40,228 bases of DNA from a virus. Position 1 is the first letter of the stretch; every line of letters starts with the position of its first letter. The position numbers were made by a program, and so were the translations under genes. The stretch covers positions 1 through 40,228 of IMG/VR virus record IMGVR_UViG_3300045431_000812. One strand, 5' to 3'. The notes beneath the pieces are model-generated. The model did no database searches. It saw only the letters and a list, made by a program, of their open reading frames with translations, and had not been told where the DNA came from. This document shows positions 15,157-36,200 of the stretch, in pieces.

Positions 15157-15203
15157 TCGCGCGCGCGAGGCGACCGGGTGGCCCGGTGACGGGCGGTGCT
15201 ACC
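15157..15203 (-). promoter_or_regulatory. Late-operon control module before U (site 1)
   Basis: On the minus strand the 19-mer GGTAGCACCGCCCGTCACC (15185-15203) is followed after 16 nt by TCGCGCGCGCGA (15157-15168). The TAG stop codon of T is part of the 19-mer. The spacer is 4 nt longer than at the other modules, and the right half-site (TCACC) is weaker. It would let U and D be expressed apart from the long T transcript. Confidence 0.6.
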
Positions 15204-17376
15204 CGCCATCATCCTCGAATCCGCGCCGGCGCTTGCGCTCCTTCGCCTTCCTGATCTTTTCCATGATCTTTTCGGCCAGCGCTTCCGCGTCTTCGCCCGG
15301 CAGCTGCTTGATATGGAAATGGTAGCTATCGCCGGCCGCTGGCGCGTCGCCTGGTCCACCCCTGCCCCGCGCGCCTGCGGCGGCCGGTGCCGCCATCGCC
15401 AGCGCTCCCGCCGCCGCGACGCCCGCCGCCATGCGTCCTGCAGCGCGGGCCGGGCCGTGGCGGTTGCCATCGATGCCCCGTTCGAGGCCGCCCGCCACAT
15501 GGCCGCCCAGCGCCATGAAGAGACGAGAGGGTGATTTGATGCCCAGATAGTTTTTGAAGGCGGTGACGCCGTTCTTCGCCACCTTGAGCAAGTGCCAGGC
15601 AAGCGCCATCGGACTGATGGCGTTCAGCAGGCCCGTCATCATCATCGAGCCGATATTGCGCAGCCAGGCTGGCAAGCCGCCGATCGCGCCCTTGACCGCC
15701 GCGACGCCGCTGGTCCAGGCCGCGCTGATCCTGTCCCAATGGGTATAGATGAGATAGGCGGCTGCTCCCAGCGCGACGACAATCCCGGTGATGATGAGGA
15801 CTATCGGATTGGTCATCATCATTATGCCGGCCCGCATAAATCCTTGCCCCATGAAGATCGCGGCGGTGCGAAGCAGGCTCAACACAGGCCCCGCGCGTCG
15901 CGCGACCGATATGACCGAGCCAATGGGGCCGATGATGGAACCCAGCGCGAATTGGGCCACGCCCAACCCCATGCGAAAGGCGATCAGCGCCGCCGCGCCC
16001 TTTGCGATAGACGATGCGAGTTGCGGGTTGGCGCCGGCCCATGCGCTGACAGCCAGCACGATGGACGAGACGCTGCCCATCAAGTCCTGAGCGACCGGCA
16101 ATAAGGCTGTCCCGACGACCAGCGCCGTTGAAGACATGGTGCCCATCAGCGCCCGCCATTGCACGGTGGCATCGCGTGCTATGCGCTGGTCGAACGCGCG
16201 GTCGGTCGTCCCCGATGCCCTTGCGATCTCGCTGCGCATCTTGCGGTAATCGTCCATATTCTGGATCAGGGATCGCAGGGCGGACTGCGCCTGCATATCC
16301 TCGAAAATATAGCCCAGCTTCGACATGTCGCCGCCGGTCGCCTTGACGGCCAGGTCCGCGATGGCCTCCAGCGGTGTCTTGCCCTTCGCATAGGCCAGTT
16401 TGAGCGCGGCAGGCAGGTCGATGCCGAAGCTCTTCTCGAACGCCTTCACCGTCGCCGGGGCGTTGATCTTGCTCAGCAGGTTCTGGACATTGTTGGCCGC
16501 TTCATCGGCGTCGCCCGCACCCCGCCGCGCGATTTGCAAGGCGGCCGACAGATCCGCGACGGCGGGTACGCCCCGCTGGCCCAGCGCCTGCAGTTGCGCG
16601 GTCAGTCCTGGAAAATGGCGCGCCATGTCCTTCACTTCGAAGGCGCCAGCATTGCCGGCGGCGGCCATCACGTCCAGGGCGACGGACGTCTGCGCGATCG
16701 GCACCCGGAGATTGTTGAGGTTCGCATAGGCGGCCGCCGCGCCGTCCGACAAATCGACCTTGAACGCAGTTCCAAGCCGCCCGATCGGGCCGATCATGCG
16801 GACGGCGTCGCGCGGGTTCAGGCCAAATCCCGACAGGACATCGACGCCTGCGCGCATATCCTCCGGCAGCTGTCGTGCGGCAGCGGCCAGCAGGACGATG
16901 CTATTGGCCATCCTGTCGGTTTCGGCGTTGGTCAGTTCGGCCTTTTGCTGAATATCGACCATGCCGCTGGAAAATTCGCCCGCCGCCTTGGTCGCGTAGA
17001 TGAGCGGCGCGGCCAGTGCCGCCCCGCGCATGACATTTCCCGCGCCCTTGTCCTTCATCTCTTGGCCGCGCCGCTGCATGGCGCGACGATCCGCGTCGAT
17101 CGCGGCGAGGCGCTTTTGTCGCTGCAGCTGGTTGTTGGTCGCGTCCAGCTGACGTTCCAGATCCCGTTCGCGGTCGACCAGCTGGGTGACGTTGCCGGCG
17201 CCCTTGGCGATTTCGCGTTGCACCGACTGCAGATTGCGGGACAGCTTCTTCGCGTCGCCGGTCAGCGCGCGCAGGGATTTCGACCCCTTGCCGCCCAGGC
17301 CGACGATATTCTTGAGCGCGCCCGACATCTTGTCGACGCCGATGAAATTGACCAGCAGGGACAGTTTGTTGTTCAT
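15199..17376 (-). CDS. T: Tail tape measure protein (P2 gpT-like)
   Basis: Starts at ATG 17376 (MNNKLSLLVNFIGVD), overlapping the E' stop as TGATG. At 725 aa it is the longest tail gene, as expected for the ruler of tail length. The N-terminus is a coiled coil rich in Lys, Arg and Gln (about residues 20-110). A TP901-type tape-measure core follows (AALAAPLIYATKAAGEFSSGMVDIQQ). Two or three hydrophobic segments lie at about 410-560 (IVLIITGIVVALGAAAYLIY), as in other tape proteins that reach the host membrane. The C-terminus is Ala/Gly-rich, then basic (EKIRKAKERKRRR). Confidence 0.92.
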   Translation of the reverse strand: MNNKLSLLVNFIGVDKMSGALKNIVGLGGKGSKSLRALTGDAKKLSRNLQSVQREIAKGAGNVTQLVDRERDLERQLDATNNQLQRQKRLAAIDADRRAMQRRGQEMKDKGAGNVMRGAALAAPLIYATKAAGEFSSGMVDIQQKAELTNAETDRMANSIVLLAAAARQLPEDMRAGVDVLSGFGLNPRDAVRMIGPIGRLGTAFKVDLSDGAAAAYANLNNLRVPIAQTSVALDVMAAAGNAGAFEVKDMARHFPGLTAQLQALGQRGVPAVADLSAALQIARRGAGDADEAANNVQNLLSKINAPATVKAFEKSFGIDLPAALKLAYAKGKTPLEAIADLAVKATGGDMSKLGYIFEDMQAQSALRSLIQNMDDYRKMRSEIARASGTTDRAFDQRIARDATVQWRALMGTMSSTALVVGTALLPVAQDLMGSVSSIVLAVSAWAGANPQLASSIAKGAAALIAFRMGLGVAQFALGSIIGPIGSVISVARRAGPVLSLLRTAAIFMGQGFMRAGIMMMTNPIVLIITGIVVALGAAAYLIYTHWDRISAAWTSGVAAVKGAIGGLPAWLRNIGSMMMTGLLNAISPMALAWHLLKVAKNGVTAFKNYLGIKSPSRLFMALGGHVAGGLERGIDGNRHGPARAAGRMAAGVAAAGALAMAAPAAAGARGRGGPGDAPAAGDSYHFHIKQLPGEDAEALAEKIMEKIRKAKERKRRRGFEDDGG

Positions 17377-17507
17377 CAGCCTTCCTTGCCGCCCCACATG
17401 GCGTTGAAGCGGGCCGTTGCCCGCCCGCTCCATTCGATCAGTTCATCCAGTGCGAGCGCCTGCAACTCCGACAGCGGCCAGTGAAAGACCGCCGCGATGT
17501 TGGCCAT
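17376..17507 (-). CDS. E': P2 E'-like tail assembly chaperone, frameshift partner
   Basis: This 43-codon frame begins at an ATG overlapping the E stop (TGATG) and reads MANIAAVFHWPLSELQALALDELIEW, the GpE (E') family pattern with its FHWP motif. It lies in the -1 frame relative to E and is open from the slippery site, so it is probably expressed mainly as the C-terminal part of an E-E' fusion of about 161 aa. In P2 the fusion is a chaperone for tail length control. Its stop overlaps the T start. Confidence 0.85.
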   Translation of the reverse strand: MANIAAVFHWPLSELQALALDELIEWSGRATARFNAMWGGKEG

Positions 17508-17860
17508 CAGGTCTTCGGCATGAGACCCGCGACGTAGCTTTCGATCGCCTTCCTCTCGGTCGCCGTCATAAAAAAACCGCGAATGGTGCCCCCGATTTCG
17601 GCCAAGTCATCGGCTTCCAGATTTTCGGCCTCGTCCTGGATCAGGATCGGGTCGGAAATGCGCTGGACCAGGGTGATGATGGTTCCAATATCGGTTTGAA
17701 GGATATCCTGCAGCGTCAAGCCGCGCAGTTCGCCGCCCCTGGGCTTGCGCAATGTCAGCTTCTCGATCCTCGTTTCGCCACGGACGATCGGCGTCGAGAG
17801 GGTGACGGTTTCGAAGCGGTTCCTGTTTTCGCTGGCGGCAGCGACTTGCGGGTCGGTCAT
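17507..17860 (-). CDS. E: P2 E-like tail assembly chaperone
   Basis: The 117-aa protein matches the phage tail assembly protein family that precedes the tape measure (TPIVRGETRIEKLTLRKPRGGELRGLTLQDI). The short product ends PKT at 17507. Ribosomes that slip back one base at the T-run after residue 97 would instead add 21 linker residues and E'. Position between tube gene FII and tape gene T is the standard P2 order. Confidence 0.9.
   Translation of the reverse strand: MTDPQVAAASENRNRFETVTLSTPIVRGETRIEKLTLRKPRGGELRGLTLQDILQTDIGTIITLVQRISDPILIQDEAENLEADDLAEIGGTIRGFFMTATERKAIESYVAGLMPKT
17570..17576 (-). other. Slippery heptamer T TTT TTT for -1 frameshift in E
   Basis: On the minus strand E reads GGT TTT TTT ATG, so seven T residues lie in the correct X XXY YYZ phase. 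After a -1 slip the next codons (TAT GAC GGC GAC CGA...) stay open through 21 codons into the E' frame. P2 uses TTTTTTG at the same place for its E/E' frameshift. Confidence 0.85.
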
Positions 17861-17891
17861 GCGGGGTTCCTCTGATTAAGCGGGGCGGATT

Positions 17892-17934
17892 GGGCCGGTG
17901 GGGTATGTGGAGAGGAAAGTCCCCCCACCGGCCC
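17892..17934. other. Strong stem-loop between FII and E
   Basis: GGGCCGGTGGGG (17892-17903) and CCCCACCGGCCC (17923-17934) are perfect 12-bp inverted arms around a 19-nt loop. The structure lies in the 127-nt gap after the tube gene. It lacks a T-run, so it is more likely a partial terminator or an RNA stabiliser for the abundant sheath and tube messages than a full intrinsic terminator. Confidence 0.55.
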
Positions 17935-17987
17935 GCCACCGGACGGCAGCCCCGCATTAGGCCGCCCGGCGGATCGGATGGACGGCA

Positions 17988-18497
17988 TCAGCCCAGCAGG
18001 ATCGCCATGATCTCCGCATAGCGATCGACGCCGTTGACGATGAAGATGCCGCGAATGAAGTCGATCTCCACCTCGGTCCGGCCGTCGACGACGCGGCGAT
18101 AATAGGACAGCGCCGCCGTATATTTATGTTCGGTCTGGTCGCCGGGCTTATCCTTGCCCAGATCGATTTCGGTGAAGCGCCCGCCGATATAGATTTCGAC
18201 CGCCTGGGCCGGGCTGCCATCGTCGGCGCGATAGGCGCAGACGAGGCGCAGACGCGTCCCTTCCGCGCTGGTCGTACCGAATTCACGGACCAGGCTGACT
18301 TCATGGCCGCCGAAGGAAAGGGTCGCTTCCATCGCGGCGACGCCCTTGTCGAGCTTGATCGCGCCCAACATGCCGCCGCCGCGATAATCCTCCGTCTCGA
18401 TCGCCAGCTTGGGCTGTTCGAATTCGGAGATCACGCCCAGATAGCTGACGCCGTTTTTGAAGGCGTTGATGTTCACCAGATTGCGTGGGAGGCCCAT
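17988..18497 (-). CDS. FII: Major tail tube protein (P2 FII-like)
   Basis: The 169-aa protein begins MGLPRNLVNINAFKNG and ends IRGIFIVNGVDRYAEIMAILLG, with the typical P2 tube pattern (LDKGVAAMEATLSFGGHE; VEIYIGGRFTEIDLG). It polymerises into the inner tube that the sheath contracts around. It follows the sheath gene with a 26-nt gap and an AGG-rich ribosome site. Length is normal for the family (about 170 aa). Confidence 0.95.
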   Translation of the reverse strand: MGLPRNLVNINAFKNGVSYLGVISEFEQPKLAIETEDYRGGGMLGAIKLDKGVAAMEATLSFGGHEVSLVREFGTTSAEGTRLRLVCAYRADDGSPAQAVEIYIGGRFTEIDLGKDKPGDQTEHKYTAALSYYRRVVDGRTEVEIDFIRGIFIVNGVDRYAEIMAILLG

Positions 18498-18523
18498 GGC
18501 CTTGTCCTTTTCAGATGAGAGGG

Positions 18524-19678
18524 TCAGGCGAGCTGGTCAGCGAAGCCGTCATAATATTCGGCGGTGTTGACCAGTTCGATGATCGGATTTTCCAGCGGCG
18601 CGGCCGGCGTATATTTCAGGCTGATGGTCGGGCGGCCCGCCGCCAGCGCGGCGGAACTGTTCTTCGAGGGATCATAATAGGCCTCCGCCCCGATGATCCG
18701 CCCCTCCGTCACGAGCAGGCGCAGCTGCGCGTTGATGGTTTCCAGCAGATCCTTGACCAGGCCGATGGTCATCGGCTGATCCATGAAGGGCGCGACCGCC
18801 GACAGGATCATGTCCTGCAGGGCGAAGCTGGTCAGCACCGCGCTTTCGAAGCTGAATTCGGGCTGATCGTCGCCGGCGCAGGTGCGGTTGCCCCAGAAGC
18901 GGAAACCATCGTTGCGGATCAGCGTGACGACCTGCGCCGCGTTGAGCAGGCCGGCGTCGTTGCTTTCGTCCTGGAGGTCGAAATGCACATCCTTCGCCAG
19001 CGCGGTCACGCCGCCGATCGTGACGTTGCTCAACGTCTTGTGCCAGCCCTGTTCCTCCGTGATGCGCGCGCGCAGGCCAAGCGCGCGGGCGACGGCGTCG
19101 CCGGCGAAGGAAGCAGCGGTGTTGGGCCAGATCAGCGTCAGTTCGCGATCACCGAAATTCTCGCGATAGGTGATGACGTCCGCCACATCGTCGCCGATCG
19201 CGCGGGCATAGACCCGCGCGCGCAGCTTCTTCGCCGCGATGACCAGCTGCGCCGTCACCGCCTGGCTGTCGAGGCCGGGCGCGCCGATGATCCGCGGCCG
19301 GACGCCCAGCTTGCCCTGCGCCGCCAGCAAGGCCTGAATGCCGGTGTAGCTGTTGCCGTCGGTCCCGCCGATGACATTGGCGTCGGTTTCGGCCTGATCG
19401 TCACCGGGCGCCACGCGCACCACCACGACGATCGGGCTTGTCTGGTCACCGATCGCCTGCAACGCGGCCCGAAGCGTGCCGCCGGTGCCTGCACTGCCGG
19501 CGGCGGCCTCGACATCGGTGACCAGGACCGGTGTGTCCAGCGGAAAGGCGGCGTCCAGCGCCTCGGTCGCCGCGCCGGCGGCGGCGGTGGCCGTGGCAAT
19601 GAGGCCGATATAGCCCAGGCTGGCGGTGCGGATGGTGCGGGCGCCGATGGTCGTTTCGCGGATGGTGATGCCGTGCAT
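18524..19678 (-). CDS. FI: Contractile tail sheath protein (P2 FI-like)
   Basis: The 384-aa protein shows sheath motifs: MHGITIRETTIGARTIRTASLGYIG at the N-terminus, WPNTAASFAGDAVARALGLRARIT in the middle, and a C-terminal domain (DQPMTIGLVKDLLETINAQLRLL). The C-terminal region is the conserved contraction core, and length is close to P2 FI (396 aa). It is the first gene after W, with only 10 nt between, so it is probably on the same transcript as W and under the module at 20075-20117. Confidence 0.95.
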   Translation of the reverse strand: MHGITIRETTIGARTIRTASLGYIGLIATATAAAGAATEALDAAFPLDTPVLVTDVEAAAGSAGTGGTLRAALQAIGDQTSPIVVVVRVAPGDDQAETDANVIGGTDGNSYTGIQALLAAQGKLGVRPRIIGAPGLDSQAVTAQLVIAAKKLRARVYARAIGDDVADVITYRENFGDRELTLIWPNTAASFAGDAVARALGLRARITEEQGWHKTLSNVTIGGVTALAKDVHFDLQDESNDAGLLNAAQVVTLIRNDGFRFWGNRTCAGDDQPEFSFESAVLTSFALQDMILSAVAPFMDQPMTIGLVKDLLETINAQLRLLVTEGRIIGAEAYYDPSKNSSAALAAGRPTISLKYTPAAPLENPIIELVNTAEYYDGFADQLA

Positions 19679-19688
19679 GATGTGCCTT

Positions 19689-20051
19689 TCAGCTGGCGAT
19701 GATCGAGGGAAGCGGGATGGAAAGGGTCGTTCGCGCGGTGGGCGCTGGCATGTCGGTCCGCGTGCCGGTGACCGTGATCGCCAGCGATCCGGCGGCGGGC
19801 GAGCCTGACAGGGCTATGCGGCTGATCCGGAGGCGCGGTTCCCAGCGGCGCAGGGCGAGCGCCGTCGCGGCGCGCATCAGCATCGCGGTTGCCGCGTTCA
19901 AAGGCTGATCGACAAGATCGAAGAGCAGCGATCCATAGTCGCGCAGCATCACCCGCGATCCCAGCGGGGTCGACAGGATGTCGCAGATCGATTGCGCCAG
20001 ATGATCCGCGCCTTCGATCGCTTTCCCGGTTGTCGCGCTCATGCCCTTCAT
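19689..20051 (-). CDS. W: Baseplate wedge protein (P2 gpW / T4 gp25-like)
   Basis: The 120-aa protein has the gp25 signature (GADHLAQSICDILSTPLGSRVMLRDYGSLLFDLVDQPLN... RWEPRLRISRIAL). gpW starts sheath polymerisation from the baseplate. I chose ATG 20051 (MKGMSATTGK), about 23 nt after the TCGCGCGCGCGA element; ATG 20042 is an alternative. In P2 W directly follows V, but here an unrelated secreted-protein gene is inserted between V and W. Confidence 0.9.
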   Translation of the reverse strand: MKGMSATTGKAIEGADHLAQSICDILSTPLGSRVMLRDYGSLLFDLVDQPLNAATAMLMRAATALALRRWEPRLRISRIALSGSPAAGSLAITVTGTRTDMPAPTARTTLSIPLPSIIAS

Positions 20052-20074
20052 GGGGCCATGCCTGCCCCGCAATG

Positions 20075-20117
20075 TCGCGCGCGCGAAGAGGGGCGACGGG
20101 TAGGAGAAGCTGCTACC
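20075..20117 (-). promoter_or_regulatory. Late-operon control module before W (site 2)
   Basis: On the minus strand GGTAGCAGCTTCTCCTACC (20099-20117) is followed after 12 nt by the palindrome TCGCGCGCGCGA (20075-20086), then by the W start. The dyad extends outward (GGCGACGGGTAG... CTACCCCGTCGCC), so the RNA could also form a strong hairpin that ends or dampens transcription of the upstream secreted-protein gene. Confidence 0.7.
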
Positions 20118-20132
20118 CCGTCGCCAAGTGTA

Positions 20133-21101
20133 TCAGAATTTCAGGGAATAGGTTGTCAACGCCGTGCCGGCCCTATTTCTGTCGGCATCGGTCGGGATTA
20201 CGTCGCCGCTGCAGGCATTGCTGCCCATGATATTGACATATACTTCACGAACGGCGTCATCTGTCACCGAGTTTCGGTTGACAACCGCCCCCTGCGCGAA
20301 CGCGCATTTTTTTCCTTTTGAAATCTGACCTATCGCCATAGCCCGGACTGCCGTCGCGGATAGCAAGTCGTCCGGCTCGTCATCTGCGGTGATAGCCGCG
20401 ATTTTTGGCCGAAAGGTAACCGTGGCAGGTTCTTTGATTACGGCGTCGCGGATTTTATCCACCGCCTGCAGTATCGAAATATAGGCTTCGGTATCGAATT
20501 TTCCCAGCTTGAGTGCCGGAGGAATTGCCGTGTCGATTCCTGTACCGGACATACCGAAGGTCCGTAGTCGATAATCGACCTGCTGTAATTTGGCTTCACC
20601 ATTCACAGCCAGCAAGGGCAAAGATGTACTGAAATTAGCGCCAGCATCCTTTACCTTTACGGCGACCAGAATGCCCGAGGCACAGCGCGCGATCGTTTCG
20701 CCACTCGCGTTCTGAATATCCTTGTACCAGACCAACTGCTGCAAAACGACTTTGTCATTCGCGGTCATGTCCGCATTTGCATAAAAATTGAGTTTTACGG
20801 CGGCCGATTTATTTAGCGAATAAGTGAACTGGTCAAAACCATCGTCAAGCCCGTTTTTATCAGCCGGACAGGTAATCTTTTGAGCCTGATCAACCGCCGT
20901 TTTGTTCACCTCCGACTCTGCCGAAATGGCCGAACTTTTGGCAACCATCCCGACGAATTGCGCCCATTCACCTGTCAAACGTGGCGGCGCGACCTCCGCG
21001 CCGTCTGAAACCGGCACAAGACCGCCTTCCGCTCTTGCAGGTGCGCTGGCGAGTAAGCTGCAAGAAATTCCCAATGAAGTGACAAAACACATCTTACGCA
21101 T
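20133..21101 (-). CDS. Secreted protein of unknown function (322 aa), likely accessory gene
   Basis: ATG 21101 (MRKMCFVTSLGISC) has GGGGAG about 8 nt upstream. The first 24 residues form a Sec signal peptide with a likely cleavage after ARA (ASAPARA-EGG). The mature part has three or four cysteines (CPADKN, RCASG, KCAFAQ, NACSGD) that could form disulfides, and alternating beta-like stretches. It is visibly AT-richer than its neighbours and sits between V and W, where P2 has no gene. This suggests a horizontally acquired lysogenic-conversion gene. No family recognised. Confidence 0.8.
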   Translation of the reverse strand: MRKMCFVTSLGISCSLLASAPARAEGGLVPVSDGAEVAPPRLTGEWAQFVGMVAKSSAISAESEVNKTAVDQAQKITCPADKNGLDDGFDQFTYSLNKSAAVKLNFYANADMTANDKVVLQQLVWYKDIQNASGETIARCASGILVAVKVKDAGANFSTSLPLLAVNGEAKLQQVDYRLRTFGMSGTGIDTAIPPALKLGKFDTEAYISILQAVDKIRDAVIKEPATVTFRPKIAAITADDEPDDLLSATAVRAMAIGQISKGKKCAFAQGAVVNRNSVTDDAVREVYVNIMGSNACSGDVIPTDADRNRAGTALTTYSLKF

Positions 21102-24658: not shown

Positions 24659-24899
24659 GATGGTCCCCCTGTTTGAGGATGCGCGCGACATTGGCCGCGA
24701 ACAGGATGATGAGCGGGATCAGGTAGGCGATGCGCGGCGGCAGTTCCGCCTTCAGTTCGGCGGGCAGCGCAGCCCAGATTTCACGGGCGACATCGGGCGC
24801 CGCGAGGAACCATGCCAGCAGCGTCGTGCCCAGCACATTGAGGCGCACGCTCCACCAGCGCCAGGCGCGGCGCCAGTCGTCGACCAGTTTGGGTTTCAT
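24648..24899 (-). CDS. Putative holin (83 aa)
   Basis: The protein has two hydrophobic segments (about 22-38, RLNVLGTTLLAWFLAA, and 56-74, RIAYLIPLIILFAANVA) separated by an Ala/Glu-rich loop, with charged ends. Size, topology and position immediately before the endolysin fit a small phage holin that forms membrane lesions at lysis. ATG overlaps the previous stop (ATGA). Confidence 0.75.
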   Translation of the reverse strand: MKPKLVDDWRRAWRWWSVRLNVLGTTLLAWFLAAPDVAREIWAALPAELKAELPPRIAYLIPLIILFAANVARILKQGDHHGE

Positions 24900-25276
24900 G
24901 GCTTTTCGCCCCCGTCGAGTTGATGGAGAGTTTCGAGCCGGCGTATCCGCCGGTCATAGTCGGAAAAGCGGGTATCAAGCCCGTCGACCTGCGCCTTTTG
25001 CCGCTCGTCTATACGCACGAGCGTCTGCTGCATTTCGCTGACGCTGCTGACGAGCCAGAAGAAAAGCGCGATGATGCCGGCGGTCAGGATCGCGGTAAGG
25101 ATGCCCCCGGCCCATTTCATCAGCGCCGGAACGGAAGTCTCCACCTTGTTTTCCTGCAGGAGCAGCGCCCGATCGACGCGCGAGAGAATGGGTGTGATTT
25201 CCGCCAGCGCGATATCGGCCGCCTGTTGGGCCATGGACTTGATGGCGGCGAGATTGGCGGGATCGGTAGCGGTCAT
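24896..25276 (-). CDS. Membrane protein of the lysis cluster (126 aa)
   Basis: A single membrane segment at about residues 55-78 (WAGGILTAILTAGIIALFFWLVSSV) separates an N-terminal helical domain from a C-terminal coiled coil (ERQKAQVDGLDTRFSDYDRRIRRLETLHQL). It is the first gene of the lysis cluster, about 22 nt after the palindrome of the late control module. It could be an antiholin, a second holin component or an inner-membrane spanin partner. None of these can be chosen from the sequence. Confidence 0.75.
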   Translation of the reverse strand: MTATDPANLAAIKSMAQQAADIALAEITPILSRVDRALLLQENKVETSVPALMKWAGGILTAILTAGIIALFFWLVSSVSEMQQTLVRIDERQKAQVDGLDTRFSDYDRRIRRLETLHQLDGGEKP

Positions 25277-25298: not shown

Positions 25299-25341
25299 GC
25301 GCGCGCGCGAATAGGCCGCGTGGGTAGCGCGGGCTGCTACC
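25299..25341 (-). promoter_or_regulatory. Late-operon control module before the lysis cluster (site 3)
   Basis: Minus strand: GGTAGCAGCCCGCGCTACC (25323-25341), 12 nt, then GCGCGCGCGCGA on the plus strand (25299-25310), one base from the common palindrome. The start of the first lysis gene is 22 nt further on. The site also lies about 66 nt upstream of the divergent TIR gene. Confidence 0.7.
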
Positions 25342-25363
25342 CTCATGCCGCAAAATTGCGTAC

Positions 25364-25387
25364 AGGATGCGACCTACCGCGCATCCT
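25364..25387 (+). other. Hairpin in the leader of the TIR gene
   Basis: AGGATGCG and CGCATCCT form a perfect 8-bp stem with an 8-nt loop, ending about 8 nt before the GGAG ribosome site of the TIR gene. It may regulate translation, stop incoming transcripts, or be an operator. No clear sigma-70 promoter is visible in 25342-25407. Confidence 0.45.
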
Positions 25388-25407
25388 CTTGTCGGAGATT
25401 TAATAAG

Positions 25408-26205
25408 ATGACCGCAATTTGGCTAACATATGCTTGGCGCGATAATAATGACGGAGACATCGATCATATCATTAAAGAGATGCAGGAAGGCGGCATCGAC
25501 GTTCGGTATGACCGTAATCAATTAATCTCTGGCCAACTCCTTTGGGATCAGATCGCAAATCACATTGCTGACCCTGAGATTTCGGCTTGGGTCATATATG
25601 TATCCGAGAACAGCATCGATAGCCGTCCTTGCATAGAGGAACTGGCATATGCGTTGGATCGCGCGCTGGAGAATGATCGCCCGACTTTTCGCCTGATCGG
25701 TCTTTTCAATGGTAACTTCGACCCAAATCTAATGCCTGCAGCGCTTAAGGTCAGGCTTTGCGTCAATCTCAAGTCCAATGACTGGGTAGATAGAGTGCGA
25801 GCCGATGCTTCTGGAGCAAAGTCATCAGCTGATGATGAGCCTATGCCTTTCGGACACAGAGTGTTCAAAAGCGGGGAGATGTGGGTTGTCGAAGTATGGC
25901 CAAGAACGGGTAGTTGGAATCAGGCATTGGCGGCAGTCGCAATATCTGATCGCGAGAAATTGGTATCCTCAGGAACAGCGGTACGAAACTCCACCCCCAC
26001 CGGAATATTTTCTCGAAATTCTCGAGAATATGAACATCCCGATCAAAAATTATGGGTTCGCGTATTTAATGGTCCGGTCGATAATTCAACATCCATGTAT
26101 ATATTTTTAAATGCGTTGCCCGAGCAAATTATTTTCGGTGATGAGAATAAGCAGTATGGCATGAAGCCTTGGCATGCCTTTATAAGTGCTCAGAAGAAAA
26201 GGTGA
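25408..26205 (+). CDS. TIR-domain protein, candidate anti-phage defence gene
   Basis: ATG 25408 (MTAIWLTYAWRDN) has GGAG about 10 nt upstream. Residues about 1-130 form a TIR domain: IWLTYAW (box 1), GGIDVRYDRNQL, then SRPCIEELAYAL with a cysteine and the glutamate expected as the NAD-cleaving residue (about E78). The remaining 135 residues are a separate, unrecognised domain (EMWVVEVWPRTGSWNQALAAV to the end). Bacterial TIR proteins often deplete NAD or make cyclic-ADP-ribose signals during phage attack. The gene is alone on the plus strand between lysis and fibre genes, AT-rich, and ends 10 nt before the convergent fibre gene, all signs of a late-acquired accessory gene. Confidence 0.88.
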   Translation: MTAIWLTYAWRDNNDGDIDHIIKEMQEGGIDVRYDRNQLISGQLLWDQIANHIADPEISAWVIYVSENSIDSRPCIEELAYALDRALENDRPTFRLIGLFNGNFDPNLMPAALKVRLCVNLKSNDWVDRVRADASGAKSSADDEPMPFGHRVFKSGEMWVVEVWPRTGSWNQALAAVAISDREKLVSSGTAVRNSTPTGIFSRNSREYEHPDQKLWVRVFNGPVDNSTSMYIFLNALPEQIIFGDENKQYGMKPWHAFISAQKKR

Positions 26206-28159: not shown

Positions 28160-28163
28160 GGTC

Positions 28164-28601: not shown

Positions 28602-28604
28602 CGA

Positions 28605-29672: not shown

Positions 29673-30316
29673 CAATGCTGCTCCTCAAGAAAAGCGCCGG
29701 CTTCGGTCAGCAGTGGCTCGCCATCTTCAGTCTGGAGATAGCTGTTCCAGACCGGATCGGTGGCGGCGACGGCATCGACGGGGATGGCCAGACGGCGTTG
29801 CCCCGCCAGCGCCGCCGCCGACAGCAGCCAGGCGCGCGCCTCCGCCACCAGTTTGAAGACCGCCGTCATGTGCGCGCGCACCGGCTTCACCTGCGCGATA
29901 TCGCGCATGATCTGTTCGACCAGGGCGTCGTCGTAGATGACGTCGCTGTCGGCGCGGAGCGGCATTTCCAGGCGGAATGTGTAGGGATCGAGCGTGTCGC
30001 GATCCTGAAACCATTCCATGATTCCGATCATGGGATCGAAACGATCCAGTACGGTGCGCAGGGACGCGGGCGTCCCCTTGCGCTGCTGGAAGCGGATGGC
30101 GTCGGCGACGGCGGCGCGCTTCTGCGCCTCCGTCCAGTTCGCATTCCACAAATCGAGCGAGAGGCCCCAGGCGAGCCAGGGGAGCAGCTGGGCGGGACAG
30201 GTCGCCGGGTTCCATATCCGGTCTATCGCGACCGGTACGTCGTCCAGGCGAGTGGCGATGGCTTCCTCGACCACGCGATCCAGCCTGGAGGCATTGGGCG
30301 GCAGGATGCTGGTCAT
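29672..30316 (-). CDS. I: Baseplate protein (P2 gpI-like)
   Basis: The 214-aa protein shows the family pattern: LLPPNAS-like start (MTSILPPNASRLDRVVEEA), CPAQLLPWLAWGLSLDLWNANWTEAQKRAAV and the FQQRKGTPASLRTVLDRF motif. It connects fibres to the baseplate. The ATG overlaps the J stop as ATGA. Confidence 0.93.
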   Translation of the reverse strand: MTSILPPNASRLDRVVEEAIATRLDDVPVAIDRIWNPATCPAQLLPWLAWGLSLDLWNANWTEAQKRAAVADAIRFQQRKGTPASLRTVLDRFDPMIGIMEWFQDRDTLDPYTFRLEMPLRADSDVIYDDALVEQIMRDIAQVKPVRAHMTAVFKLVAEARAWLLSAAALAGQRRLAIPVDAVAATDPVWNSYLQTEDGEPLLTEAGAFLEEQH

Positions 30317-31179
30317 GGCGCCACCGTCACGGACGTAGCGGTGGCATGGGCGAAGCCCGTCCGGCCGGGATCGACATCCGCCGCAGGCAGGGAAAGGCTG
30401 GTATTTTCCACCCCTTCAACCTGCAGCGCGCCGATCAGCCCGGCGCGCGCGACGATGCGGCCGATCCGCCGCCGCTGATCCTTGTAGCTTTCCAGATCCG
30501 CGCTGGCGGTCGCCAGCACGATCGCCGGATCGGGGCCGCCCGCGATCGTCAGCATGGCATCGATCTGGAAATCGACGCGGGCAGCGCTGGCGACGCTGAC
30601 ATGGTCGGTCAGCGGGCGGACCTCGTCATTATCGAGGACGGCGGCCACCGCCGCGATCTGCGCCGGCGATGCCGTGCCATCGCCGGTTTCGCTCAGCAGG
30701 CTGACCAGCACTTCACCGGGCGCGGGCGACGTCGCGACGGCGTCGGCGATCGTGACATCAGCGCTGAGCGCGTGGAAGACATAGGCCGCCTCCGGTCCCG
30801 CCACGGTGAAGGCATCGGGCGCCAGCAGCACCCGGCGGCGCAGGCGGTCGTCATCCTCCCCAACCAGGCGTACGACGCCGTAGAAGGCGGCCAGATTTTC
30901 CAGATTGGCGCCCGTCGCCTTGGCGATCAGCATCGACACCGCGCGCTCGTTGAAGTCCTGGCGCAGGAGCATTTCGCGGAAGGCGGCCGCCTCGATCAGC
31001 TTCATGACCGGATCGCTTTCGACCAGCGCGTCGAAAGCCAGTCCGGCATCGGCCATCAATTGCTGAAACAAGGCGAGGAAGTCCGCCTTGATCGTCTCGT
31101 AAGACAGTGTCTCGACAACCTGCGGGGCCGGCAGGCGGGACAGTTCGATAGCGACGGACGCTGGGGCTTCGAAGGACAT
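30313..31179 (-). CDS. J: Baseplate wedge protein (P2 gpJ-like)
   Basis: The 288-aa protein (MSFEAPASVAIELSRLPAPQVVETLSYETI) is a clear J family member with the central YGVVRLVGEDDDRLRRRVLLAP. I chose ATG 31179, with AAGGGA six bases upstream and 22 nt after the palindrome; ATG 31185 is two codons earlier with almost no space to the AAGGG. Its ribosome site and both ATGs lie in the 3' arm of a 16-bp inverted repeat, which suggests translational control of read-through message from S. Confidence 0.92.
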   Translation of the reverse strand: MSFEAPASVAIELSRLPAPQVVETLSYETIKADFLALFQQLMADAGLAFDALVESDPVMKLIEAAAFREMLLRQDFNERAVSMLIAKATGANLENLAAFYGVVRLVGEDDDRLRRRVLLAPDAFTVAGPEAAYVFHALSADVTIADAVATSPAPGEVLVSLLSETGDGTASPAQIAAVAAVLDNDEVRPLTDHVSVASAARVDFQIDAMLTIAGGPDPAIVLATASADLESYKDQRRRIGRIVARAGLIGALQVEGVENTSLSLPAADVDPGRTGFAHATATSVTVAP

Positions 31180-31225
31180 GGCCATCCCTTCGCCCGGCTC
31201 GTCGCGCGCGCGAAGGGATGGCCAT
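31178..31225. repeat. Perfect 16-bp inverted repeat over the J translation start
   Basis: ATGGCCATCCCTTCGC (31178-31193) and GCGAAGGGATGGCCAT (31210-31225) are perfect inverted copies around a 16-nt loop. In the minus-strand RNA the 3' arm contains the Shine-Dalgarno AAGGG and the J start codons. The loop and arms include the TCGCGCGCGCGA element. Confidence 0.85.
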
Positions 31226-31244
31226 GGTAGCAGGCGCTGTTACC
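31202..31244 (-). promoter_or_regulatory. Late-operon control module before J (site 4)
   Basis: Minus strand: GGTAACAGCGCCTGCTACC (31226-31244), the most symmetric of the five (GGTA-R-CAG / CTG-Y-TACC), then 12 nt, then TCGCGCGCGCGA (31202-31213). The last base of the S stop codon touches the site. It separates the head/tail-completion genes from the baseplate/fibre genes. Confidence 0.72.
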
Positions 31245-31726
31245 TAGTCGGCATCGGGATCAAGGAGGGAGGCGGCCACTTCGAGCGTGAGGAAATCATC
31301 CTCCGGACTGAAGCCCAGAAGCCGCCGGACGGGGTAGCGCGCGCGGATGGGCGCGCCGCCGCGCAGATATCCGACAACCGCAACCTCGCCAAAATGGCTG
31401 ACCGACGCCACGCGATCGACCGCATTGGTGGCGGGATAGATGGTCACGCCATCTTCATCGGCGTCGATTTTCCAGTTGCGGGCATAGCGCAGGCCCTTGA
31501 ACATTTTGCCGCCGGCGCGGCTTCGCAGCCGGCCACGCCGGTCCTTTCGGGGGCGGCGCGGCTTGAACGGCGTGCCGTCGGGTTCGACATTCTGCGCGAT
31601 CCGGACAAGATTGGACGCCCGGAGCCTTTGCCCCAGGCGGTTGGTTGCGCGCCGGCGCTTCGCCGGGTCCATGCCGGCAAGGATGCGACCGAACCACGCC
31701 TCGAACGCCTGCAGATCGTCATCCAT
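31244..31726 (-). CDS. S: Tail completion protein (P2 gpS-like)
   Basis: The start is ATG 31726 (MDDDLQAFEAWFGRIL), overlapping the R stop by 8 nt; the in-frame sequence upstream is Pro/Cys-rich shadow translation. The 160-aa protein has the P2 S pattern (MFKGLRYARNWKI, ATNAVDRVASVSHFGEV) and basic R/K stretches. It acts with R to finish the tail. Confidence 0.88.
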   Translation of the reverse strand: MDDDLQAFEAWFGRILAGMDPAKRRRATNRLGQRLRASNLVRIAQNVEPDGTPFKPRRPRKDRRGRLRSRAGGKMFKGLRYARNWKIDADEDGVTIYPATNAVDRVASVSHFGEVAVVGYLRGGAPIRARYPVRRLLGFSPEDDFLTLEVAASLLDPDAD

Positions 31727-32186
31727 CCAGATCGACGCCGGCCAGGGGCGGCACCGGCACAACGCCGGCGAAGCCATCATCGTCATGAAACAGCGGATCA
31801 GGTTCGGTCAGATAGGCCAGATCATATTGCCCGTTCGGGCGCGGCGCGACCGTCACATTCTGTGTCAGCTGGATCTGCAACAGCAAATCGGCGGTGCCAT
31901 TGTCGAGAATGTCGGCATCAAACGTAAAGCCATCGCGGCCGGGCGTGAGCAGGTCGGGCTGATGCACCCGGAGCCACCGAAAGACGGCGTGGGCGACCAC
32001 GCGAATGTCGCTTTGCATTTCGACGATCAGGACGCTGGCCTGAAAGGAGAAGCCGAAGGCGTCGGTCCTGGTCCCCTGGCACCGCCCCGCGCCGCGCTCG
32101 ATCCATATCCGCAGATTTTCCGGGCTGCGCTGCAGTTCGGGCAAAACGGCGGCGATGGCTGCGCGCAGGCTGTCAAGCTTTTGCAT
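31719..32186 (-). CDS. R: Tail completion protein (P2 gpR-like)
   Basis: The 155-aa protein (MQKLDSLRAAIAAVLPELQRSPENLRIWIERG... FRWLRVHQPDLLT) is a recognisable R family member, required for joining tail and head. It starts one base after the X stop and overlaps S. Confidence 0.9.
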   Translation of the reverse strand: MQKLDSLRAAIAAVLPELQRSPENLRIWIERGAGRCQGTRTDAFGFSFQASVLIVEMQSDIRVVAHAVFRWLRVHQPDLLTPGRDGFTFDADILDNGTADLLLQIQLTQNVTVAPRPNGQYDLAYLTEPDPLFHDDDGFAGVVPVPPLAGVDLDG

Positions 32187-32187
32187 G

Positions 32188-32400
32188 TCAGTCCCAGAGA
32201 TTGACGGTTTCCAGCACCGCCGGCGCCAGTTGGCCGAGATCGGGCAGGATCACCTGCGTGCCGCCCGGCAGCGACGGACCCAGCGCCGCGAGACCGGGAT
32301 TGAGCGCCAGAAGCTGTTCCGTCACGCCCTGGGTGCGGCCCAGTGCGCGCCAGCAGATGGCATCCACGGTTTCGCCGTCCAGGGCGGTGACGATTGTCAT
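32188..32400 (-). CDS. X: Tail protein X, LysM-like (P2 gpX)
   Basis: The 70-aa protein has the short LysM-type pattern GETVDAICWRALGRTQGVTEQLLALNPGLA... GTQVILPDL typical of gpX. It helps attach the hub in tail assembly. The ATG overlaps the preceding small gene as ATGA. Confidence 0.92.
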   Translation of the reverse strand: MTIVTALDGETVDAICWRALGRTQGVTEQLLALNPGLAALGPSLPGGTQVILPDLGQLAPAVLETVNLWD

Positions 32401-32576
32401 GGTCGACTTGCCAGTTCACGGCGCACGGGCCTGGCCAGAATGTGCCGCTGCAAATCGTGCAGCGAGGACATGAACTCCACGCGGTCACAGCGATGCTCGA
32501 CCGGCAAGGCCAGAAAGGCGTCCCAGAGCGCGGCGCTTTGATCCAGAAGTAACGCTTCCTGTTCTGTCAGCGGCAT
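32397..32576 (-). CDS. Small conserved-looking protein between L and X (59 aa)
   Basis: The gene begins at an ATG overlapping the L stop (TGATG) and ends overlapping the X start (ATGA), so both ends are coupled. The product (MPLTEQEALLLDQSAALWDA... DRVEFMSSLHDLQRHILARP) is a short helical protein. I have seen similar small proteins at this place in P2-like prophages of alphaproteobacteria, but I cannot give a family name. It occupies the slot of P2 lysis gene Y but has no membrane segment, so it is not a holin. Confidence 0.8.
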   Translation of the reverse strand: MPLTEQEALLLDQSAALWDAFLALPVEHRCDRVEFMSSLHDLQRHILARPVRRELASRP

Positions 32577-33070
32577 CAGAGCAACTCCACCCGATTGCGC
32601 TCCACCGGCTGCTCAGCCCCGATGCTGCGCAAATCCGCAACGGCCGCCAATGCGCGGCGGCGCAATTCGTCGCTGGTCAAATCCTTTTCCGCCGAGCGAT
32701 CGAGGCCCTGATCGGTGGCGGTGACGTCGCGATAGTCGGCCGCCAGTTCCGCCCCGGCGAAATTGCGGATGACGCGTTCCCACAACAGCACGGCATAGTT
32801 GCGCCCGTTCAGCGTTTTGTCCGTCACCTCTTCGAGGATGACCGCCCCGCCCAGAACCCGCGCCGTGCGCCAGTCGGCCAGTTCGCGAAAGGCATGGACC
32901 ATCGCGCCTTCCGTCGCTTCGACCAGGCGCGCGTGGGTCACCGCGCCCTCACCCAGGCGCAAGCGGTCGCGCACATCGTCGAGCGCAACGGGCGGAAACC
33001 AGCCATCGGCCACCACCTGCGCGCCGGCGGGATCGGGCGCGGGCACCGGAGAGGAAATAAGGCCGGTCAT
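32576..33070 (-). CDS. L: Head completion protein (P2 gpL-like)
   Basis: The 164-aa protein fits the L family (DGWFPPVALDDVRDRLRLGEGAVTHARLVEATEGAM; AVLLWERVIRNFAGAELAADYRDVTATDQGLDRSAEKD). It closes the filled head and forms part of the connector. It follows M after a 113-nt gap that holds repeats. Confidence 0.92.
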   Translation of the reverse strand: MTGLISSPVPAPDPAGAQVVADGWFPPVALDDVRDRLRLGEGAVTHARLVEATEGAMVHAFRELADWRTARVLGGAVILEEVTDKTLNGRNYAVLLWERVIRNFAGAELAADYRDVTATDQGLDRSAEKDLTSDELRRRALAAVADLRSIGAEQPVERNRVELL

Positions 33071-33183
33071 GTCGGTGGTTCCTGTCAGATTTTGGGGGGT
33101 GAGGATGGCTGGGCCGTGCGGACCGTGCAGGGCCGTGCGGACCGTCCATCCGCCCCCCAGCGCCGTGGGGCGGGCTGTTCTGG
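33071..33183. other. Repeat-containing gap between terminase M and L
   Basis: The 113-nt gap contains a 16-bp direct repeat, GGGCCGTGCGGACCGT at 33111-33126 and 33130-33145. A GC-rich hairpin follows, CCGCCCC (33150-33156) with GGGGCGG (33167-33173). No T-run follows the hairpin. It may be an RNA-processing or attenuation point between head genes. No coding sequence is seen. Confidence 0.5.
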
Positions 33184-33945
33184 CTATCGGTTGCCGGCTT
33201 CGGCAGCCTCCGCCAATTTCCTGAGCGTTCGGGCGATACGCTCGACATCCTTTTTCACGCCGACATTGCTGTCGAGTTGAAGCGCGCGCTTCAGATGGTT
33301 GAGCGCTTCTTCGGTATAGGCCGCCTTGCCGCCCGCCGGCGCATTGTCGGCGGTGGGATCGAAGGCTTCGGCGCGGCGCTCATAGGCGCGGCCTATGGCC
33401 TTGTGCAGCTTGGCGCGGGCGGGATCGGGCATGTCGGCGCCGGCCGTCAGCGCATTGGCGCGGACCAGTTGTTCCAGCGTCACGGCCTCATGCTGTTCCA
33501 GCGCCACGGTGGCGATGTCTTCGGCAACGAAACAGGCGGCGGTGCGGTTGTAGCGTTCCGGCAGGACCAGGTTGAATTTCAGGACATGCGCCGCCAGGCG
33601 CAGCGCATAATCGAAATCGCGATAGTCGATCGCCCAGATCATGTTGGTCACGAGGATTTCATCCTGCGACGCCAATCCCTGTTCGCCGGCGGCCAGGACG
33701 CCGTCTATCCAGTCCCGGTAGGCCGCCGCCATCGCCGCCTTCATGGGGTTGCGCGCCTCGATCGATGCGACGTCGGCCAGCTTGCGCAGATCGTCGTGCA
33801 GCAGCACGCGCATGGTCGCATATTCGCGGCCCGCCTCCGTATCACCGGCCGGTTCCGACGGCGCGACGGCGGTGCCGGCGGCGATCGGCGCGCCGCTCAT
33901 CTGCGCGCGGATTTTCTGCTGGGTTCGGCGGAACGGGCTGACCAT
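33184..33945 (-). CDS. M: Terminase small subunit / endonuclease (P2 gpM-like)
   Basis: The 253-aa protein matches the P2 M family (AAMAAAYRDWIDGVLAAGEQGLASQDEILVTNMIWAIDYRDFDYALRLAAHVLKFNL). With the large subunit P it cuts at cos and starts packaging. It lies third in the O-N-M-L order of P2. Confidence 0.92.
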   Translation of the reverse strand: MVSPFRRTQQKIRAQMSGAPIAAGTAVAPSEPAGDTEAGREYATMRVLLHDDLRKLADVASIEARNPMKAAMAAAYRDWIDGVLAAGEQGLASQDEILVTNMIWAIDYRDFDYALRLAAHVLKFNLVLPERYNRTAACFVAEDIATVALEQHEAVTLEQLVRANALTAGADMPDPARAKLHKAIGRAYERRAEAFDPTADNAPAGGKAAYTEEALNHLKRALQLDSNVGVKKDVERIARTLRKLAEAAEAGNR

Positions 33946-34088
33946 GGTGTCTCCTTCAAAATGGCCGCGCTATCCGGCGGCGGCCGACCGGGCGGTTGCA
34001 GAGCATCGCACCCCGCCACGGCCATGATGTGGGCTGTTGCGCGGTCCGCCCCGGATGGCAGAGCCGCGCCGTCAAAGCCCCCTGGGTA

Positions 34089-35216
34089 TTACGGGCGCTG
34101 ACCGAAGGTGATATTTTCGGCCATGACCATGAAATCGACATCCTCGATCACATAGCCTTCGTTGACGCTGTTGTAGTCGACCAGCGACGCCTTGTTTTCC
34201 GGCTCATCCTTGATGTAGCGGCGGCGCGACCCTTCCTGATAATACATCGAAAGGTTCGATCCGTCGGTCGCGCCGGACGGTGCCAGAGGCGTGACGACCA
34301 TTGTGCCTTCGGGGAAGAAGGGCACGATCGCGGCCGGGCGACCGCCCACCTGCTTGGTCGACATCACGATATCCGATACCGTCTGGTCGCTGGTGGACTT
34401 GCCGCCGTCGGTCGTGTCGGCGAGCGGCCGGTTGACCATCGGGAAATATTTTTCGTCGATCAGATCCTGGCTGACCAGAACGACATGATCGGTCGAACCC
34501 CGCGCCCAGCTGGGCATGCCGGCGATCAGGTCATAGGCCAGCGCGTCGATATTCTTGTAATCGCCATCGGCAATGTCGGCGGACGGGCCGATATAGATGG
34601 GCTGGGCCGCGCCAGTGGCGGTGGTGACCCCGCCCGCCGTGACGGTCGCACGGCCCATGACATGATCCGCTTTTTCAAGGCGAAGCTTCTGCAGCCACCC
34701 GATGTTCAGATCCTCGCCCATCGGATTATCATCCGGGTCGCTGTCCGCCGCCGCCGTGACGCCATGCCAGCCCACCATGATCCGGCTGAGCGCGATCGAG
34801 ATGGCGACATGGCGGGCATAGCGCTGCGCGAAGTCGGGGAAACGCGACCAGGCGTCGATGATCTCCCACGGCAGCAGGGTATCGAATTCGGTGTCGTGCA
34901 GCTGATATTTGCGATCCTGCAGGTTGCCGACATATTTGGGCTTGCGCGGCAGATTGGCGCGCGACGTGCGGCTTGCGATCAGATTGTGGGTGTTCATGCC
35001 GATCACCTGGCCGATCATGTCGCGGACCGGCATGATGTTGACGCGCTGCAGGAAGCCCACCTGTTCGCGCTGCAAATCCTCAAGCCGCTGTTCGGAGGCC
35101 GGGTCCAGCGCGAACTGGTGGTGGACGCCGCGCGAAGCGCCATTGATCTGGGCAATCGCGGTGTAGAGGCCATCGAGCGCCCGGCGGCCGCGATCCGAAA
35201 GAGTATATTTCGCCAT
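34089..35216 (-). CDS. N: Major capsid protein precursor (P2 gpN-like)
   Basis: The 375-aa protein carries the family pattern: FALDPASEQRLEDLQREQVGFLQRVNIMPVRDMIGQVIGM at the N-terminus and DHVVLVSQDLIDEKYFPMVNRP near the middle. The N-terminal 30 or so residues are probably removed by the O protease, as in P2. A 143-nt gap without coding sequence separates it from M. Confidence 0.95.
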   Translation of the reverse strand: MAKYTLSDRGRRALDGLYTAIAQINGASRGVHHQFALDPASEQRLEDLQREQVGFLQRVNIMPVRDMIGQVIGMNTHNLIASRTSRANLPRKPKYVGNLQDRKYQLHDTEFDTLLPWEIIDAWSRFPDFAQRYARHVAISIALSRIMVGWHGVTAAADSDPDDNPMGEDLNIGWLQKLRLEKADHVMGRATVTAGGVTTATGAAQPIYIGPSADIADGDYKNIDALAYDLIAGMPSWARGSTDHVVLVSQDLIDEKYFPMVNRPLADTTDGGKSTSDQTVSDIVMSTKQVGGRPAAIVPFFPEGTMVVTPLAPSGATDGSNLSMYYQEGSRRRYIKDEPENKASLVDYNSVNEGYVIEDVDFMVMAENITFGQRP

Positions 35217-35259
35217 GTGATTGTTCCTTGGCAGTTAGGCGGTTGTCGGGGCGGGGCTG

Positions 35260-36093
35260 TTAGAAGACGCCGTCATAATTGGCGGCCTTGCCGTTGGACG
35301 GCGGGCGGCGGCTGTAATGCGGCGCGGGTGTTTCCTCCTTTTCGTCCGACAGCTTCTTGAACTGCAGGGTCAGACCATCGACTTCGCTGCGCAGTTCGGT
35401 GCGGATCGCGCCGATCTCCGTCGTCACAGTCTTGCCGAATTCCTCGAACATCGATCTGAAGGCGGAGAAATCGAACGAAGCGGCGGGTTTTTCCTCCGGC
35501 TTGGGCTTTTCCTCGACTTTCTCCATCGTACTCAATTTGCCGGCGAAGTTGTCCAACAGGCCCGACAGTTTCGAGAAGAAACCGGCGCCATCATTGCCGG
35601 GCGCATCATCGACGAATTCGAGCGCGGCCGATTCATCGCGCGACAGATTGATCGTGCCGGGCCGGTTACGATTGAACTGAAGCCGCTCGGTCGCGATGGC
35701 CGCCGGGCTGTCCGTGAGGGCGCAGCCCATAAGATAGGCAAAGCCCTTGCCCGCGAAATTATCCTCGATCTCGATCGAGGGATAAACCTTCTGGCTGGCG
35801 TCGTTCAGGGCCTTGGCATCGCCGGTGACGTCGAACACGCCATAGAGGCCCAGGCGCTTTTCCGTCTTCCCATTGAAATTGACGTCCACTTCGGCGGTCG
35901 ACAGTTCGAGGACATCGCCATAGGCCTTGAACGGCTTTTCACCCGATACGCCCCGGATATGCTCGATGTTCAGGCGGGCGCCATAGGTCTTCACATCGTA
36001 GCTGGAAGCCATTTCCTTCAGCAGCTTGTCGTCGATATTGCGCCCGTCGACGGTCGAACCGGCGGTGGCGAGCAGGAAAGGCTTGGTCTTCAT
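35260..36093 (-). CDS. O: Capsid scaffold and maturation protease (P2 gpO-like)
   Basis: The 277-aa protein has the protease half first, with a candidate catalytic triad Asp16 (STVDGR), His45 (NIEHIRG) and Ser106 (VYPSIEIE), as in P2 O. The C-terminal half is the scaffold, a coiled coil rich in Glu and Lys (about 185-260). It organises gpN into procapsids and then cleaves them. It is the first gene of the leftward head operon, about 90 nt after the shared control site with P. Confidence 0.94.
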   Translation of the reverse strand: MKTKPFLLATAGSTVDGRNIDDKLLKEMASSYDVKTYGARLNIEHIRGVSGEKPFKAYGDVLELSTAEVDVNFNGKTEKRLGLYGVFDVTGDAKALNDASQKVYPSIEIEDNFAGKGFAYLMGCALTDSPAAIATERLQFNRNRPGTINLSRDESAALEFVDDAPGNDGAGFFSKLSGLLDNFAGKLSTMEKVEEKPKPEEKPAASFDFSAFRSMFEEFGKTVTTEIGAIRTELRSEVDGLTLQFKKLSDEKEETPAPHYSRRPPSNGKAANYDGVF

Positions 36094-36181
36094 GTGTCGG
36101 CTCCAGTGTCGGCGGGGGCTTTTCCGCTTCGTCTGATGGACGAAGAGCCGATCCGGAGGCTTCTAGGCAACGCGCGGGCGC

Positions 36182-36200
36182 GGTAGGACGCGCTGTCACC
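36182..36200. promoter_or_regulatory. Late control site between divergent O and P (site 5)
   Basis: GGTGACAGCGCGTCCTACC read on the minus strand (GGTAGGACGCGCTGTCACC on plus) is the fifth copy of the dyad. It lies in the 154-nt gap between O and P, where P2 has its divergent late promoters. The TCGCGCGCGCGA palindrome is missing; instead a CGCGCCCGCGCG block follows on the O side. No coding sequence is seen in 36094-36247. Confidence 0.6.

Follow-up and report, generated by a model that had tools for sequence, protein, structure and literature searches.

Candidate Ogr-type operators with a changed half-site, and a fixed distance to the start codon, before the late operons of a P2-like phage

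The activation of late genes by Ogr is a textbook switch of phage biology, known mainly from work on enterobacterial P2 and its relatives. Counted in a matching 19-bp operator frame, with the first base after the dyad as position 0, the transcription starts in the RefSeq record of P2 lie at +45 (P), +46 (O), +47 (V), and +47 (F). The operator of the Stenotrophomonas phage Smp131 was published as TGT-N12-ACA (PMC3931495), and in the Ralstonia phages phiRSY1 and phiRSA1 a divergent Ogr-type dyad precedes four late units that have no recognisable sigma-70 promoter (PMC5694545). Here, we describe a P2-like phage, with sphingomonads as its likely hosts, carried in the virus record IMGVR_UViG_3300045431_000812, whose entire 40,228 bases were analysed and are called the window below. 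Five copies of a 19-bp dyad, GGT-N13-ACC, stand before its late operons, and the phage encodes an Ogr/Delta-like protein. We read these dyads as operators of an Ogr-type activator that have kept the P2 geometry with a rewritten half-site, and from which the first genes would mostly be transcribed as leaderless mRNAs; we give this reading, which was reached from sequence comparison, a probability of roughly 0.82. Ogr-type operators with P2 geometry are known. The unexpected part is the frozen operator-to-ATG distance and the likely leaderless state of the late operons.

Dyads before the late operons

The late genes of the window are arranged as P, Q on the plus strand and as O N M L R S, J I H G, lysis and V, W FI FII E T, and U D on the minus strand. 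The five dyads, all of which had been located correctly in a preliminary description of this DNA, and the candidate activator are as follows.

31226..31244, minus strand: predicted operator of the J operon, GGTAACAGCGCCTGCTACC
20099..20117, minus strand: predicted operator of the W-FI-FII-E-T operon, GGTAGCAGCTTCTCCTACC, from sequence and comparison with relatives
25323..25341, minus strand: predicted operator of the lysis operon, GGTAGCAGCCCGCGCTACC, from its sequence
15185..15203, minus strand: predicted operator of the U-D unit, GGTAGCACCGCCCGTCACC
36182..36200, no single strand: predicted divergent operator, one for both O (minus) and P (plus), arranged as in P2 pO/pP
8407..8778, minus strand: Ogr/Delta-like zinc-finger protein, candidate activator (Pfam PF04606, 1.5e-8; PHROG 603; alignment)

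The earlier statement that the dyads lie between genes is approximate, as there is overlap between the U dyad and the end of T, and the J dyad reaches the stop codon of S. Similarly, the longer word GGTARCAGC ... CTACC, described as well kept, is complete at only three of the five sites, and the core conserved in relatives is GGTA-N11-TACC. By itself, GGT-N13-ACC is weak evidence, being common in the window (17 occurrences against 5.0 expected). The core GGTA-N11-TACC is found 3 times against 0.043 expected, and a dyad with the 12-bp GC palindrome TCGCGCGCGCGA no more than 20 nt away is found 4 times against 0.017 expected.

About 60 related contigs were compared. Relatives were found by capsid and Ogr similarity, longer contig stretches were added, and the comparison was anchored on gene starts. 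With at least 6 of the 8 core bases, the dyad precedes J in 31/31 homologues, W in 28/29, O in 28/29, and P in 28/28, in phages whose late proteins are mostly 35 to 90% identical to those of the window. The enrichment before late genes that the preliminary description had anticipated is thus present, and the random scatter through host genomes that would have spoken against it was not seen. The dyad followed after 8 to 20 nt by TCGCGCGCG matched 8 viral contigs, seven of them with a spacer of exactly 12, and two loci only in 85,000 species genomes, both in Sphingobium and both among P2-like prophage genes. GGTARCA-N7-CTACC, searched in two Sphingobium genomes, lay within the prophage only (at four places in the one, and at a single place, before J, in the other). 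A looser grammar, GGTARM-N8-YTACC with CT at +10/11 and an ATG at about +45 to +49, was matched a single time among 251 Sphingomonadaceae genomes, upstream of a prophage gpJ. The P2-like prophage of Sphingobium psychrophilum (L009 / L012) appears to have lost the DNA between a point inside M and a point inside S, and its J operator is intact.

The Ogr-like protein scores 34.8 bits against the PF04606 profile, above the curated cut-off of 26.3. Its zinc-binding motif, C-X2-C-X22-C-X4-C, is intact, and C35, C38, C61, and C66 are invariant in an alignment of 14 sequences that includes P2 Ogr. A search of PDB sequences with this protein returned only weak matches to ribosomal proteins and ubiquitin, and no plasmid homologue of it was found. 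The occurrence in front of late operons in dozens of phages, the absence from host genomes outside prophages, the P2 spacing, and the intact zinc motif give good support to the original proposal of a divergent operator, with a changed half-site, for an Ogr-like activator. The 19-bp frame itself is not new, since the P2 V site, TTGT-N11-ACAA, has it too.

Distance from operator to start codon

Alignment of the relatives brings out a common promoter anatomy. T at +11 is invariant (J, 17/17; W, 24/24; O, 13/13); the O promoters have TTGC at this position, and those of P mostly have TCGACA or GCGACA, similar to TTGACA, the -35 hexamer. At +35/36 (J and W) or +37/38 (P) there is a second AT island, and a weak CATGCC-like -10, with A at -11, becomes visible where the preliminary description had seen none. 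The first T of a -35 element and the A of a -10 element separated by a 17-bp spacer are 24 nt apart, which is the distance from +11 to +35, and transcription is therefore predicted to start at +46. This predicted start agrees with the P2 geometry. In the window, the start codons fall as follows.

31177..31179, minus strand: predicted J start codon and transcription start, ATG at +46, no Shine-Dalgarno sequence
20049..20051, minus strand: predicted W start codon, ATG at +47
25274..25276, minus strand: predicted start codon of the first lysis-operon gene (open reading frame 24896-25276), ATG at +46
15136..15138, minus strand: predicted U start codon, ATG at +46
36248..36250, plus strand: predicted P start codon, ATG at +47
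36091..36093, minus strand: O start codon, ATG at +88, with a predicted 42-nt leader bearing a GGAG Shine-Dalgarno sequence

The same distances recur among sphingomonad phages, where the ATG of J lies at +46 to +48 in 17/17, that of W at +46 to +49 and in frame in 22/24, and that of P at +46 to +50 in 13/13; the ATG of O lies at +88 to +115. Of the perfect GGTA-N11-TACC sites, taken with their orientation, 78 of 196 are followed at +45 to +50 by an ATG that opens a reading frame, against a background of about 1.3 per index; for nine control dyads, which have fewer sites (0 to 109 each), the figure was 0 to 3. Shine-Dalgarno 4-mers are present upstream of only 7% of J and 5% of W genes in non-redundant cases, versus 100% for O, N, FI, FII, and H and 94% for M, and the start codons of J and W are all ATG.

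With an ATG at the predicted start, and with J and W lacking a Shine-Dalgarno sequence, the simplest reading is that the mRNAs of J, W, lysis, U, and probably P have the AUG at their 5' end; these late mRNAs are probably leaderless, with a predicted leader of 0 to 4 nt. The preliminary description had noted the fixed distance to the start codon without drawing this meaning from it. There is a precedent in P2, where V is annotated as transcribed from the first base of the start codon, 10308; the P2 O leader is 40 nt. In Zymomonas mobilis, 119 of 2,675 pairs of transcription start site and gene are leaderless (PMC7566282), and as this bacterium belongs to the same order as the sphingomonads, hosts of this group do make leaderless mRNAs. 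A search of open-access papers turned up no statement on leaderlessness or a fixed operator-to-ATG distance for P2-like late genes; the subscription literature, including the original P2 promoter papers, lay outside this search, and priority is not claimed.

In our proposal, the Ogr-like activator would occupy GGTA-N11-TACC, with the centre of the site about 56 nt before the transcription start, and would recruit host RNA polymerase to a poor promoter made up of the T at +11 as the -35 position, 17-bp spacing, and the CATGCC-like -10. Six late units (O-N-M-L..., P-Q, J-I-H, lysis, W-FI-FII-E-T, and U-D) could be switched on in this way from the five sites; for U-D this would hold here and in a few relatives. 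Transcription of J, W, lysis, U, and probably P would begin on the start codon or within about 3 nt of it, and the message would be read from its 5'-terminal AUG. O would be the only unit with a leader bearing a Shine-Dalgarno sequence.

Several observations weigh against this proposal or narrow it. The relatives are not independent, and redundancy among them was reduced; the U sites are known from the window and about four relatives only. The -10 is weak and unlike between J and W, and 2 of the 24 W homologues have no in-frame ATG at +46 to +50. For P, the leaderless state is less sure than for J and W because a GGTG 4-mer lies upstream of it in 62% of cases. In P2 itself, a leader of 23 nt precedes P, so a given operon need not be leaderless in every phage. 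R, D, and I also often have no clear Shine-Dalgarno sequence. Since the absence of the signal by itself proves little, the fixed distance carries as much of the argument.

It is also conceivable, if unlikely, that the operators are the same and transcription starts further upstream, near the CG tract treated below, with a TAGATAAAA/TGGATAATA-like sequence at +11 to +19 serving as the -10 and a leader of about 20 nt. An AT-rich, -10-like sequence is indeed found there in several W promoters (G009, G010, G020, G021, and G022), but it is missing in J, O, and P. Such a start would bring the operator centre close to -35, whereas it lies 55 to 57 nt away at all four P2 promoters; the supposed leader would have no Shine-Dalgarno sequence, and the ATG would be fixed at +46 to +50 for no reason.

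CG tract, remaining alternatives, and neighbouring genes

The GC palindrome lies downstream of four of the dyads.

31202..31213, minus strand: CG tract TCGCGCGCGCGA of the J promoter, exact, over the -35/spacer (predicted -35 position 31209-31214)
20075..20086, minus strand: CG tract TCGCGCGCGCGA of the W promoter, exact
25299..25310, minus strand: CG tract of the lysis promoter, one change from TCGCGCGCGCGA
15157..15168, minus strand: CG tract TCGCGCGCGCGA of the U promoter, exact, 16-nt spacer from the dyad

Its description was accurate: the palindrome is exact at three sites and has one change at the fourth, the spacers from the dyad are 12, 12, and 12 nt and, before U, 16 nt, and the ATG follows 22 to 23 nt after it at three sites (18 nt at U). 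It occupies +12 to +23 at J, W, and lysis and +16 to +27 at U, over the -35 and spacer, and the O/P site at 36182-36200 is without it. The interpretation given to it has fared less well. Its exactness at three window sites, together with the enrichment of CG tracts near dyads (52 of 221 within 25 nt), could point to an operator for a second regulator or, as had been suggested, to a new core promoter element of fixed sequence. However, the J promoters of relatives do not keep the 12-mer and have only an alternating CG run of 7 to 11 nt (17/17) that starts between +13 and +15. In W promoters, the start of the longer runs varies from +13 to +20, or another sequence stands in place of the run, so the register floats while the T at +11 and the ATG stay fixed. 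O and P promoters have no tract. The total of 221 CG tracts in these phages is no excess over the 305 predicted from composition, and the palindrome on its own, counted in two Sphingobium genomes, is dispersed at roughly the control level. On the floating register and the background-level host count, a fixed operator was rejected, and we regard the wider suggestion as unlikely. A role in DNA structure, or as a weak -35, is more likely, and the tract would then be part of the -35/spacer DNA.

Nor is the element without counterpart elsewhere, as had been thought. The same kind of tract occurs in late promoters of Smp131, whose only three CG tracts are all in such promoters, of the Pseudomonas phage Dobby (2 of its 5 tracts, in the O and FI promoters), and of the Microcystis phage Mae-JY29, which has an exact TCGCGCGCGCGA before J. 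The ATGGCC that follows the palindrome was considered as a conserved start codon and rejected: it is out of frame at W and lysis and overlaps the -10 region, and the in-frame ATG is at +46/47.

Inverted repeats were also noticed in this part of the promoters. W promoters of relatives (for example G006, G013, G021, G022, and G027) have a short one, GCGC-nnn-GCGC or GGCGCC-GAA-GGCGCC, between -35 and -10, in which pairing seems to be kept despite sequence change. The J promoter of the window phage (31177-31226) has a long one, ATGGCCATCCCTTCG ... CGAAGGGATGGCCAT, over the spacer, CG tract, and start codon, which is not obvious in relatives.

A repressor that silences the late operons in the lysogen, such as the phage immunity repressor, could also use palindromic sites in front of each of them. 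We hold this to be quite improbable, as the predicted position of about -56 matches the features annotated as activator binding sites in P2, and the half-sites differ where Ogr has diverged, one Sphingobium genome having a second Ogr/operator pair. A chance resemblance in GC-rich DNA combined with shared ancestry of the upstream genes, which the abundance of GGT-N13-ACC might suggest, is in practice refuted, since the dyad is conserved before J, W, O, and P although J proteins are down to about 35 to 50% identical, control dyads lack the ATG spacing, and the full grammar was matched once in 251 genomes.

Beside the lysis operator, a TIR-domain gene is inserted on the plus strand (25345-26205; Pfam TIR_2, 1.3e-8), with its own GGAG, a hairpin upstream, and a likely start near 25407; it is possibly defence cargo. 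It was ruled out as a target of the lysis dyad because the likely ATG is 66 nt away, position +11 is not T, and the gene is provided with a GGAG of its own. The early region includes a YdaS/Cro-like regulator (9227-9610, minus strand; Pfam YdaS_toxin, 9.2e-19) and is adjoined by a gene for a HIRAN-domain protein (10322-10753, plus strand; Pfam, 3.4e-11). Between D and the early region lie transposase-like (phrog_5749) and PAPS-reductase-like genes, at 11479-12870 and 12910-13659, both on the minus strand.

Comparison with known systems

Smp131 (Simpcentumvirus), a xanthomonad P2-like phage, shares TGTA/CGTA-type dyads and TTGCC at +11 in the O promoter. Its V site is TGTA...TACG, with the V ATG at +46 if the start is re-read; the annotated V start of this genome (L168), 15007, may be wrong, as an upstream ATG opening MDSAQPQQINNLL lies at the leaderless position, +46 after the dyad. 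The J geometry of Smp131 does not fit, and its Ogr is 20% identical. Dobby (Citexvirus) has TGTA-N11-TACA before V, O, and P, with the V and P ATGs at +47. It differs in the first base of the half-site, T and not G, and in a V promoter that is AT-richer and without a CG tract. In phiRSY1/phiRSA1 the dyad is a different one, TGTTGT-N13-ACAACA, and lies 50 to 90 nt from the initiation codons. Mae-JY29 has an Ogr homologue and the same operator-to-ATG distances (J, +46; V, +47; P, +49), with a different half-site, CGTT-N11-AACG, that is imperfect at J. This phage (L169, PP438421) resembles sphingomonad P2-like phages (W, 62% identity; J, 47%), and its stated cyanobacterial host may be doubtful. 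The P2-like genes of the Zymomonas plasmid pZM41 likewise include an Ogr homologue and have ATGs at +46 (J), +46 (V), and +45 (P); the half-site differs, as CCCATC-N9-GATGGG. The operators of KL3 and Alfacinha1 were not identified by a simple inverted-repeat search.

Sphingomonad prophages themselves use several words. Sphingobium abikonense NBRC 16140 carries a prophage of the kind described here, and a second P2-like prophage of S. abikonense has its own Ogr (29% identical over the finger) and ATTTGGA-N10-TCCAAAT before O/P, J, and V, with the ATG about 55 to 59 nt from the dyad centre as counted by eye. Further prophages, with Ogr proteins 33 to 35% identical, were scanned without a preset word for dyads with 6-bp arms and an ATG 54 to 60 nt from the centre. 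This gave CTCGTT-N11-AACGAG in two prophages and CTCCTT-N11-AAGGAG in one, before J, V, or P, with the ATG at 56 to 58 nt; because the distance window was preset, the scan is informative in the repeated words and the genes that they precede. The G159 prophage (Ogr, 51%) has GGTG-N11-CACC before W, with the ATG at +46. For G034, the word-free scan found no repeated dyad, and by eye its J promoter has TTGT-N13-ACAA at a shorter distance.

Taken together, these systems make it reasonably probable that one frozen late-promoter rule holds for P2-like phages across several bacterial orders, in which the half-site word is exchangeable (GGTA, CGTT, CCTT, TGTA, TTGT, CCCATC, or ATTTGGA), the dyad centre lies about 55 to 59 nt before many first-gene ATGs, and many late operons are leaderless. 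The activator/operator pairs of the sphingomonad phages would then be orthogonal to one another, and one bacterium would carry two of them. In environmental alphaproteobacterial phages, a known switch would thus appear with a rewritten DNA word and with translation starting on the predicted transcription start. Under such a rule, late operons, correct start codons, and the specificity of the activator could be predicted from sequence, and the natural series of activator/operator pairs could be used to learn how DNA is recognised by the Ogr zinc finger. The rule also predicts translation of several structural operons in the absence of Shine-Dalgarno sequences.

Of the described systems, P2 (Peduovirus; pP, pO, pV, pF, and Ogr) shares the zinc-finger Ogr, the single divergent P/O site, and, at V, the 19-bp frame with the ATG at +47; its dyad centres lie 55 to 57 nt from the annotated starts, and the predicted starts of the window phage agree with this. 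GGTA-N11-TACC does not fit the literal TGT-N12-ACA, which, as searched, also failed on the four annotated P2 promoters. The phage of the window differs from P2 in its half-site, GGTA as against TTGT/TGT, and in an Ogr that is 25% identical; its late region is divided into more units, with J, W, lysis, and U having sites of their own, and its P mRNA, leadered in P2, is probably leaderless.

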